Below are positions 443-3,796 of a stretch of DNA of 64,000 nt, one piece after another. The DNA comes from a virus, in the IMG/VR virus record IMGVR_UViG_3300020474_000005, positions 1 to 64,000 of that record. One strand, written 5' to 3'. Position numbers and translations under genes: made by a program. Position 1 is the first letter of the stretch, and the number at the start of each line of letters is the position of its first letter. Under the pieces are notes generated by a model. The model searched no databases. It saw only the letters and a program-made list of their open reading frames with translations, and was not told where the DNA came from.

Positions 443-631
443 TTAAAAGAACGGTTGTCCTGTTTTTTTGGCTGTGTCCAAGTTTTCTTTTATCACTTTC
501 GCCATCACTTGTCTGTCTTCGTGTGATGTGCCGAACAGTTCGTCCAGTGTGACGCCGCCACGCATGAACCATGCTATCTTGTACAGTTCTGCTTTGAAGT
601 TTTTGATTTCGTTGTCCATTTCTTTGGACAT
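443..631 (-). CDS. gp51-like short tail/baseplate assembly protein, probably a -1 frameshift extension of the gp26-like gene
   Basis: The frame encodes 62 residues from an ATG at 631, with a central K-I-A-W-F-M-R-G-G-V motif and an end of T-G-Q-P-F-F. From memory this resembles short proteins found next to gp26 in T4-like marine phages, named gp51-like (baseplate hub assembly). There is no clear ribosome binding site before the ATG. The reading frame stays open upstream, with no stop, back into the end of the gp26-like gene, where slippery heptamers lie at 673-682. A -1 slip would add 14 residues (RIKIATLDTSEILK) before this ATG and make a 363-residue fusion. This mirrors the G/GT tail chaperone arrangement of many tailed phages. 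Separate initiation at 631 cannot be excluded. Confidence 0.6.
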   Translation of the reverse strand: MSKEMDNEIKNFKAELYKIAWFMRGGVTLDELFGTSHEDRQVMAKVIKENLDTAKKTGQPFF

Positions 632-666
632 CTTTAAGATCTCAGATGTGTCGAGAGTCGCTATCT

Positions 667-1533
667 TTATCCGAAAAAATTTGCTGAGTCAAATGCAACT
701 GGAACTGTGTATTCAGCAGGTGCACCTCCCTTAACTTCCTCTTCCGTGGAAATAACTTTCTGTGGAGCAAGTTGGAATGCTTTTCTATTTTCTTCTAGAT
801 GGTCCATTATTGCTTTGAAAAATGCTTTACTTGTATTGTCTATGAAATCTTTTATCATGCCTTTGTCTGTAACAGTTTCGCCATCTACTCTGATTGATCT
901 AATAGTCTGTGAAACCATGCCAACATTTAGTTCAGTAAGTTTTGTGAAACTTTTTTGGAACTCTCTGATCTTTTCTTCGTCTGTTAATTCTGTATCATTT
1001 ATGACACTTTGCAATCTTGCTTGTTCAAACTGTTTAAGAGCACTTGCAGTGAACTCTGCATAACTCAAAGGTCTTGTTTTAATTTCCATATTTTCATATA
1101 GGAAAGTGTCTTTGTAAGTTGCTCCAAGTATTGTTGTTAAAGTTTCTTGTAAATTTAATTCTAAATCTTTTTCAATTTTTGTGCCGGGCACTGTGACTGG
1201 CAAAGTCATGCTTTCACCATATGTAGCCATTCTGATTGCAATCAGAGCCGCATCACAATCTATGGAAGGCATTGCCCAAGCATTTTTAATTTGTGGTATA
1301 CAACTTTGTATTACCTGCACAGTTGCTTCGCCGTTTAATAATGCATCTGGAGTTTTGAACAGCATTTCGTCTTTAGCAGTCATAGGATACACAGCAATCT
1401 CTTTGGATTCTGGTACTTCTATTGTGCCTTCAGGATAAAATTCATATTTGCTAGGCAGTGTCACAAACTGTTTAGGTTGTCTGTAATACTTCTTAAGCGG
1501 GTTACTAGGTGTCTTTATTTGTTCGTTTGACAT
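667..1533 (-). CDS. gp26-type baseplate/tail assembly protein (T4_baseplate family)
   Basis: This 288-residue protein carries the pattern of the T4 gp26 / T4_baseplate family: a V-T-L-P-S-K-Y-E-F-Y-P-E-G segment near residues 23-36, then 'pMTAKDEmLfKTPDALLNGEA' split over residues about 50-70, 'VIQSCIP' and 'IRMATYGES'. Members sit in or assemble the baseplate hub; by position and by the frameshift signal at its 3' end it may act as a tail tape-measure chaperone like phage lambda gpG. A good ribosome binding site (GGAGTAAAA) precedes the ATG at 1533, with a CTAAATA late promoter at 1584-1578. It is transcribed divergently from the tape-measure-like gene at 1640. Confidence 0.8.
   Translation of the reverse strand: MSNEQIKTPSNPLKKYYRQPKQFVTLPSKYEFYPEGTIEVPESKEIAVYPMTAKDEMLFKTPDALLNGEATVQVIQSCIPQIKNAWAMPSIDCDAALIAIRMATYGESMTLPVTVPGTKIEKDLELNLQETLTTILGATYKDTFLYENMEIKTRPLSYAEFTASALKQFEQARLQSVINDTELTDEEKIREFQKSFTKLTELNVGMVSQTIRSIRVDGETVTDKGMIKDFIDNTSKAFFKAIMDHLEENRKAFQLAPQKVISTEEEVKGGAPAEYTVPVAFDSANFFG
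673..682 (-). other. Candidate programmed -1 ribosomal frameshift site
   Basis: Read on the minus strand, the end of the gp26-like gene is GCA AAT TTT TTC GGA TAA. This contains two overlapping X-XXY-YYZ heptamers in the zero frame, A AAT TTT (682-676) and T TTT TTC (679-673), two codons before the stop. After a -1 slip the next codons are CGG ATA AAG ATA and the frame stays open into the 62-residue gp51-like frame, ending at 443. No clear downstream pseudoknot was identified. Confidence 0.6.
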
Positions 1534-1542
1534 TTTTACTCC

Positions 1543-1639: not shown

Positions 1640-3796
1640 ATGGCAATAGACGAAAGATTACTTGAAAAACTTATGGACGGCGTCGACGCGAAGGGCGGGA
1701 TAGCCTCCGAACAGACTTTACAAGAGTTAAAAGACGTATTGTCCGGTAGAACGAGTACCGGATTCGGAAAAGTCATTAAAGATGTTGCTAAAGGGGGAGG
1801 CGGCATGGGCGGAATGTTTAAACGTCTAGCCGTTGCAATTACCGATGTCCAAGATGAGGGCGAATTTTTAAAGGACAGTTTCGAAGCAATTAAAATATCC
1901 ACAAGAGCCGCGGCAGGCGGAATGGAAGGCATGACTGCCGGACTTTATGAACTGGGTGATTTGGCTGGAGGCATAACAGGTAAATTAATAACTGGATTAG
2001 CAATGGCTTCGGAAGTTATTGGTGCTAACGTAACAGCATTTAGAAATTTGTCAAACGTTGGAGCCAATGCAACACTTGATTTGGAAAGATTAAGAGAAGC
2101 ATCAGGAAGAACAGGAATAGACTTAGACACACTAGTTGGCGAAACTGTAAGACTATCTAAAGAGTTTGCACAATTAACTGGATCACCTGCAACCGGTGTT
2201 AATAGATTTTTCAACATTCTCGAATCCTTCAACCAAGGTGACTTTAGAAGAGATTTCCAAGCACTAGGTTTAACAACAGCGGATCTTGCCGAGCAGACTG
2301 GAACCTATCTAGAAATACAAACTAGATTAGGAAGAGCACAAAGCATGACACAAGGACAGTTGAATACTGGAGCAAGTAATTTTATCCTGCAATTAGATGA
2401 ACTTGCAAGATTGACCGGACAACAGAAAAGTGAATTACAGGCAGAATTGAGAACGCAGGCATTGGATAGAAGAATTCGATTGACTGGTAACCAAGAAATG
2501 CAATCAAGTATTGCCAGGGTAGCCGCGTTTGCACCGGAACTGCGTGACAGTTTTGTAAACATAATTGGTACAGGGTTTCCAAGAACAATGGAAGAGATAG
2601 GTATCTTCAGTAAGGCTGGAGTTGGAGAAGCCGTTCAAGCAATCAGAGACGGAGTACCTGGAGCATCGGATCAATTAGTGGCGGCACTACAAAGAGCGTC
2701 TATGGAAACTGCCAACATGAGTGCAGAGGAAAGAAAAAGATTACAAACACTAGTAAACACAACTGATGGATTCTTTAATGCCGACGTTGCTTTAATTGGA
2801 TTCCAAAAAGCGACACAAGAGCAAACAGAAACAATTAGGAAACAACAAGAGTTTCAGAAGTCACAAGAAAGTAATTTAATAAATTTAGACAGAGCGTCTG
2901 AAAGACTACGTACAGCATTCTTATCGTTAGTATCACAATTCACTCCAGTGTTTGATGTTATTGCGGCAGGCTTAGAAAAATTTGCTACTATATTAACAAA
3001 TATTTCTGTAGGTTTGCAAAATAAATTTGAAGGACTAGGAGACAGCACAGCAAAACTTATTGCCGCTTTCGCAGTTTTAACAACAGGAGTTCTTGCAGTC
3101 AAAGGTGGAAAAGCATTAATAGGTGCAGGTAAAAGTTTATTTGGTGGAGGCGCACAAACAAATCCATTACAGAACGTTGCACCAGGAACAGGTGGAATGT
3201 TAGGTGGACTAGGTATGGGACTGAAAGGTTTCGCTGGTGGTTTGAGAGCATTCGCTAATCCGATGGTAGTGTTAGGTGCAGGTGCATTAGGTGCCTCGAT
3301 AACATTAGTTGGAGCAGGTATCGCCGGTGCAACATACTTGATGGGCGGTGCATTAGAAAAATTTGGAGAAGGTCTAAAGAGCATAGGTGAAGTTGATGGC
3401 AAGAACTTAATGGAAGTTGCCAAAGGTTCAACAGCACTTGCAGGAGCAATGGTGGCTTTGGCAGGCGGAGGTACCGTTTCAGCAGTAACAGGCTTCTTTG
3501 GTAAACTTTTAGGTGGCGGAACAGATAATTTTGCCAAAAACATCAATAATATGCTAGATAATCTTGACAAAAACAAAATAGATATGTATGCTACAAGTAT
3601 TAACAATCTTGGAGAATCTATGCAATCACTTTCTTCTGGAATGCAAACGGTGACAACTGGAGCCGCAAAGGGAACAGGAGATAAATTGGATCAGTTAAAT
3701 AGTACAATGGAGCAGATTTTAATGGTGATGAGTGAAAATACTAGATATGCTCTTAAAACATCACGGTCATCTACAGAGGTAGCAGAAGCAGTATAA
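1640..3796 (+). CDS. Tape-measure-like tail/structural protein
   Basis: This 718-residue protein has long helical, Gln- and Leu-rich stretches followed by a Gly/Ala-rich hydrophobic segment at about residues 470-575 (for example VLTTGVLAVKGG and GAGALGASITLVGAGIAGA), typical of tail tape-measure proteins that span the tail tube and cross the membrane on DNA entry. It lies between the gp26-like gene and gp20, and its stop overlaps the gp20 ATG (TAATG). The frame extends back to a TTG at 1613, but the ATG at 1640 is preferred because a late promoter motif lies between the two. No strong ribosome binding site is visible. T4 gp29 would be the functional counterpart; direct homology was not recognised. 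Confidence 0.55.
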   Translation: MAIDERLLEKLMDGVDAKGGIASEQTLQELKDVLSGRTSTGFGKVIKDVAKGGGGMGGMFKRLAVAITDVQDEGEFLKDSFEAIKISTRAAAGGMEGMTAGLYELGDLAGGITGKLITGLAMASEVIGANVTAFRNLSNVGANATLDLERLREASGRTGIDLDTLVGETVRLSKEFAQLTGSPATGVNRFFNILESFNQGDFRRDFQALGLTTADLAEQTGTYLEIQTRLGRAQSMTQGQLNTGASNFILQLDELARLTGQQKSELQAELRTQALDRRIRLTGNQEMQSSIARVAAFAPELRDSFVNIIGTGFPRTMEEIGIFSKAGVGEAVQAIRDGVPGASDQLVAALQRASMETANMSAEERKRLQTLVNTTDGFFNADVALIGFQKATQEQTETIRKQQEFQKSQESNLINLDRASERLRTAFLSLVSQFTPVFDVIAAGLEKFATILTNISVGLQNKFEGLGDSTAKLIAAFAVLTTGVLAVKGGKALIGAGKSLFGGGAQTNPLQNVAPGTGGMLGGLGMGLKGFAGGLRAFANPMVVLGAGALGASITLVGAGIAGATYLMGGALEKFGEGLKSIGEVDGKNLMEVAKGSTALAGAMVALAGGGTVSAVTGFFGKLLGGGTDNFAKNINNMLDNLDKNKIDMYATSINNLGESMQSLSSGMQTVTTGAAKGTGDKLDQLNSTMEQILMVMSENTRYALKTSRSSTEVAEAV

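Follow-up and report, generated by a model that had tools for sequence, protein, structure and literature searches.

In lambda, gpG coats the tape measure protein and gpGT brings in tail tube subunits, and neither protein is part of the virion. Tail assembly chaperones of T4-like phages were the subject of a study by Vladimirov, Gautam and Davidson (Virology 2022, 566:9-15), which we take up as cited in PMC10885494 and PMC12846349. The former cites it for T4-like phages that dispense with frameshifting and encode the short protein and the long fusion in a gene each, and the latter for T-rich slip signals in T4-like chaperone genes. The central idea developed here is thus already in print. T4 gp51 is described as essential and of unknown function in the consulted part of PMC3004832.

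Here we analyze a locus in the window, the stretch of 64,000 nucleotides at positions 1 to 64,000 of the IMG/VR virus record IMGVR_UViG_3300020474_000005. A sequence-only reading of the window had proposed programmed -1 frameshifting in this phage, as in lambda G/GT, and comparative evidence strongly supports it, with T TTT TTC as the site. This is a well-supported new case of a mechanism that is already known. As far as we have seen, the new elements are the breadth of the pattern across jumbo phages, T TTT TTC as its conserved site, the lack of a start codon in PA5oct, and the case of Aeh1. No description of a frameshift in RaK2-like jumbo phages was recognised in a literature search that lay mostly outside subscription papers and is weak evidence of absence, and term counts found no word starting with 'frameshift' in the RaK2 paper (PMC3622015) or the Atu_ph07 paper (PMC6102473).

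The gp26-like gene and its -1 frame

The gp26-like gene is single-copy in the window's source record, a virus fragment of 75,999 bases. Its protein matches PF12322, the gp26/gp51 family of Pfam, at E 3.9e-12 (46.8 bits, curated cut-off 24.5) and the baseplate hub family phrog_150 at E 1.4e-15. The reading frame closes with the codons AAT TTT TTC GGA TAA, the stop lying at 667-669, and T TTT TTC ends 3 nt and A AAT TTT 6 nt before it. After a slip, the -1 frame has no stop until 443-445, giving a fusion of 287 + 76 = 363 residues. The sequence-only reading had described two overlapping in-frame heptamers near the gp26-like stop, a -1 frame open into a gp51-like ORF with a 363-residue fusion, and a gp51-like ATG with no clear ribosome binding site. 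Recomputation bears out the coordinates, the frames and the length of the fusion, and only GAG precedes the ATG at 629-631, as against GGAG before the gp26-like start (Table 1).

Table 1. Features of the locus, in window coordinates
Feature	Position	Strand	Remarks
gp26-like ORF, 288 aa, short chaperone form (putative)	667..1533	-	PF12322 T4_baseplate, phrog_150
Slippery heptamer T TTT TTC, inferred -1 site	673..679	-	in frame; retained by almost every relative compared
Overlapping heptamer A AAT TTT	676..682	-	poorly conserved, probably secondary
Post-slip -1 frame, 76-residue C-terminal domain and stop	443..673	-	profile matches to cyanophage domain and, weakly, T4 gp51 C-terminus
Apparent separate 62-aa ORF	443..631	-	ATG not conserved, without clear ribosome binding site
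GGAG, Shine-Dalgarno-like, 5' of gp26-like ATG	1539..1542	-	
Divergent neighbour, 718-aa ORF, candidate tape measure protein	1640..3796	+	window's own protein without family match

A chance scan covered 19,857 codons, contained in the 46 non-overlapping ORFs of the window that are 100 aa or longer. It returned 102 in-frame X XXY YYZ heptamers, and only the two at the gp26-like end have a -1 frame of at least 40 codons beyond the zero-frame stop. T TTT TTC occurs in frame once in these codons, and the known lambda G/T site was recovered by the same scan.

The slip site across T4-like phages

Five close relatives were found in IMG/VR. In all five, as in the window, the heptamer is retained and the -1 frame stays open; L003-L006 do not differ from one another in the printed junction stretch. 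Viral contigs from more distant relatives were searched with single proteins as queries. Among named jumbo phages we took 16 of 61 matched phage records, the rest being mostly near duplicates by eye. T TTT TTC is present in 15 of the 16 and T TTT TTT in the remaining one (RAS14), at 3 to 33 nt 5' of the stop, and the -1 frame is always open, with FF followed by a further domain. Further IMG/VR loci carry T TTT TTC in four of four cases, one being RaK2 itself and two sharing the printed junction. Other T4-like phages have it in five of seven: Vibrio CZ01, Aeromonas AsFcp_2, Stenotrophomonas Mendera, Agrobacterium OLIVR5 and Xanthomonas X1. In the other two, Vibrio K474 and Serratia 3M, the region around the stop contains no X XXY YYZ heptamer, and the -1 frame is open nonetheless. 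In K474 (L107 2902-3905) the downstream domain lies in this open frame, with TAATG at the junction; in Serratia 3M (L113 3001-3930, Ackermannviridae) it is likewise placed, and G GTT TTC is present, which we take to be the T7 gene 10 slip site.

Cyanophage-type contigs are uniform: all of the best 80 of 276 relatives have T TTT TTC exactly 3 nt before a stop that is variously TAA, TAG or TGA. One of them (L047) is S-PM2 itself, in which the gene annotated as gp51 corresponds to the -1 frame that follows T TTT TTC. Aeh1, listed as being without gp51 in the consulted part of PMC3037559, carries T TTT TTC at a distance of 3 nt from the end of gp26, where the stop follows, and a -1 domain of 58 codons where no gene is annotated (L128 8836-9001). 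A gp51-like domain also occupies the -1 frame of AsFcp_2 (L109 3757-3922), in an unannotated stretch between gp26 and the next gene.

The compared sequences establish the frame relation, the slip site, a conserved C-terminal domain and, in some relatives, the lack of a usable separate start. The alignment of related phages that the sequence-only reading had suggested as a check thus finds heptamer and frame relation kept in nearly all relatives examined. Of its two heptamers, T TTT TTC stands as the conserved site; A AAT TTT, found outside the close relatives only in L127 and four cyanophage-type loci, was rejected as the main slip site because it is absent from most relatives.

The sequences compared are kin rather than independent, and the pattern is nevertheless repeated across many phage genera. 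Away from this site, T TTT TTC encodes only 7 of 144 FF dipeptides in the cyanophage-type loci and 7 of 105 in the others. Past the stop, the -1 frame runs for 54-75 codons at 78 distinct sites, against a median of 4 and a maximum of 29 in the +1 control. Counts of domain profiles, RNA folding, start codons and Shine-Dalgarno matches, FF background and frame length leave out K474 and Serratia 3M, as well as Aeh1 and the junction duplicates L004-L006, L124 and L126. At the level of sequence, the conservation of T TTT TTC is far beyond chance and is not a codon or composition effect.

RNA structure differs between the groups. Downstream stems are strong in cyanophages (mean z -2.74 for 48 distinct stretches versus shuffles, with 41 below -1), whereas the jumbo stretches average z -0.31 (21 distinct), with strong exceptions including Atu_ph07 and PA5oct. 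In the window the stretch after the site forms no notable hairpin (z -0.06 versus shuffles), and a stimulatory RNA structure was rejected as a general requirement for the jumbo group on these values. Many cyanophage-type loci (L027-L106) have GGAGG- or GAGGG-like stretches about 10-14 nt 5' of the slip site; these resemble internal Shine-Dalgarno stimulators, and they may only encode a conserved Leu-Glu-Gly.

A probable tail assembly chaperone and the alternatives

We propose that a single gene of this marine T4-like phage very probably gives rise to a tail-building helper protein in two lengths, through programmed slippage of the ribosome. Most ribosomes would terminate at the zero-frame stop and yield the 288-aa short form, and a minority would slip back one base on T TTT TTC and yield the 363-aa long form, which ends in the gp51-like C-terminal domain. 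If the lambda pair gpG and gpGT is a guide, coating of the tape measure protein would fall to the short form and recruitment of tail tube subunits to the long form, and both would be absent from the finished virion. We infer shifting in this phage, its efficiency and the chaperone action of the products; taken as a whole, the explanation that the gp26-like gene and the downstream -1 frame form one recoded tail assembly chaperone gene is, in our judgement, highly probable.

Structure prediction and gene order provide further context. The predicted fold of the gp26-like protein has a pLDDT of 82.5, and its alignment with the HK97 tail assembly chaperone 2ob9 (Z 5.8, 101/107 residues, rmsd 4.8) is suggestive, unrelated folds scoring likewise. 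Foldseek comparison of the model with the PDB found no solved structure at E <= 0.001, and a sequence-profile search of solved structures gave a chance match only. The model weakly resembles proteins of the jumbo phages Ralstonia RSF1, RP12 and Erwinia phiEaH2 in BFVD, a hint that chaperone relatives may exist in these phages. The 718-aa gene is divergent from the chaperone gene, as are its counterparts in RaK2 and PA5oct, and we regard this divergent neighbour in jumbo phages as a candidate tape measure protein. Tape measure PHROGs each match one or two of 11 aligned neighbours (the window's and 10 others); the window's 718-aa protein has no match of its own to any tape measure family among the PHROG profiles.

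Several other explanations were weighed. Homopolymers are error-prone in some sequencing methods, and the T run could represent a sequencing or assembly error, or chance. Identical T6C is nevertheless found in independent genomes of many lineages whose flanks and stop codons differ, in 77 distinct 47-nt contexts (51 cyanophage-type and 26 others), and an artefact, already refuted by these comparative data, is exceedingly unlikely. Alternatively, there may be two genes, with translation of the 62-aa protein beginning at its own ATG, either by reinitiation or by translational coupling, once the gp26-like frame has ended. The window does have an ATG at 629-631, the downstream ORF is annotated as its own gene in many records, and K474 combines an overlapping TAATG with the lack of a heptamer. 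Yet independent initiation at this ATG is not conserved, because the codon is TTG in L002 and CTT in L003-L006. PA5oct has no ATG, GTG or TTG in its entire 73-codon -1 frame, RaK2 has its first start codon at codon 31 of 71, and at 30 of the 78 distinct sites the first start codon is at least 10 codons in or absent. A Shine-Dalgarno-like match of at least 4 bases lies before the gp26 start at 53 of the 78 sites and before the first -1-frame start at only 9 of the 78, and initiation of a second gene would leave the retention of T TTT TTC unexplained. Since the ATG is not conserved and PA5oct lacks a start codon, we conclude that T TTT TTC is the shift site and that what looks like a 62-residue protein belongs to a frameshift product, as its C-terminal domain; a separately initiated gene is very unlikely.

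A real frameshift product could also serve a different end, with gp26 and the long form as structural hub components rather than tape measure chaperones, a role we consider unlikely. The database names read baseplate hub, and genetic studies cited in the consulted part of PMC3004832 place gp26 in the T4 hub; the same part of that article, however, tabulates gp26 and gp51 as hub assembly chaperones, with gp51 absent from the particle. The 2022 paper, as cited in PMC10885494, names these genes tail assembly chaperones. In PA5oct the gp26-like gene bears no ESI-MS/MS note, whereas the five adjoining genes gp331-gp335 each have one. For CBB, the consulted part of the virion table lists CBB_251, the candidate tape measure protein, with 29 in its first number column, and not CBB_250; the CBB record labels gp250 a structural protein, and the text of the paper, in the part consulted, applies CBB_250 to an 894-aa protein, perhaps by a slip. 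The view of gp26 and gp51 as tail assembly chaperones, put forward in the sequence-only reading and already in print, agrees with PF12322 and with the C-terminal data.

Relation to T4 and other known systems

T4 gp26 and gp51 both match PF12322 (8.8e-64 and 3.9e-52, the latter over residues 1-201 of 249). The family phrog_634 (baseplate hub assembly catalyst) matches T4 gp51 at 147-246, and it also matches the downstream ORFs of S-PM2, CZ01 and OLIVR5. In profile comparisons, the cyanophage -1 domain meets the T4 gp51 C-terminus at a probability of 96.6, and the jumbo -1 domain gives 62 against the cyanophage domain and 8 against T4 gp51; each of these three comparisons scored above 100/100 column shuffles. 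The 62-aa ORF of the window has no gp51 family match in Pfam or PHROG, only the C-terminal part of gp51 being present and no full gp26-like body. The label 'gp51-like' is apt for the C-terminal domain of T4 gp51 and does not extend to full gp51.

T4 and the window share family PF12322, and the window's C-terminal domain resembles the gp51 C-terminus. T4 differs in having two divergent genes and no T TTT TTC at the gene 26 end, where the window has one gene and a frameshift. Across 10 T4-type loci, gp26 was located divergently in nine, and the printed gp26 end is without T TTT TTC. T4 gp51 repeats the gp26 body in full and adds the C-terminal domain to it, and by sequence T4 appears to encode the short form in gene 26 and the long form in its paralogue, gene 51. 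Separate genes in relatives had been named in the sequence-only reading as an observation that would count against a frameshift. Such genes do occur in T4, but they leave the idea unharmed because gp51 itself contains the gp26 body. We lean slightly towards the view that T TTT TTC frameshifting is ancestral across the T4 superfamily, including alphaproteobacterial and enterobacterial jumbo phages, cyanophages, vibriophages and Aeh1, and that T4 and its near relatives swapped it for a duplication into divergent genes 26 and 51. If so, these phages would offer a natural experiment in which a recoding signal was traded for gene duplication, and the missing or short gp51 of many genomes would be explained.

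Our data also suggest an annotation fix for many T4-like genomes, in which the small ORF that follows gp26 encodes one half of a frameshift product. This ORF is often unlabelled, unannotated or called missing (RaK2, PA5oct, AsFcp_2, Aeh1). The loci also provide numerous natural versions of a single slip site, some followed by a hairpin and some not, for probing what bacterial -1 frameshifting needs, and a simple test is offered for the role of the essential T4 gp51, whose function has long been given as unknown.

Among other systems, lambda G/GT is alike in its short ORF with a slippery heptamer near the 3' end, its -1 frame into a C-terminal domain and its setting among tail genes. It differs in the slip site (G GGA AAG, as against T TTT TTC in the window) and in the length of the -1 domain (144 residues, as against 76), and the window's tape measure candidate is divergent rather than downstream; no sequence homology was detected between the -1 domain and lambda gpT. 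Cyanophage S-PM2, with gp26 and a short gp51, has the same T TTT TTC 3 nt before the stop and gp51 in the -1 frame, but its large tail gene lies downstream on the same strand. In cyanophages, moreover, the stretch after the site outperforms its shuffles in folding by over one s.d. in 41 of 48 distinct cases, whereas the window's does not. The tail assembly chaperones of Vandenendeviridae and Andersonviridae belong to other phage families and are likened here by the description of their frameshift. They too shift to the -1 frame at a run of T, with a GTTTTT motif, shortly before the short form ends, and have a downstream ORF misannotated as a separate gene (PMC12846349).
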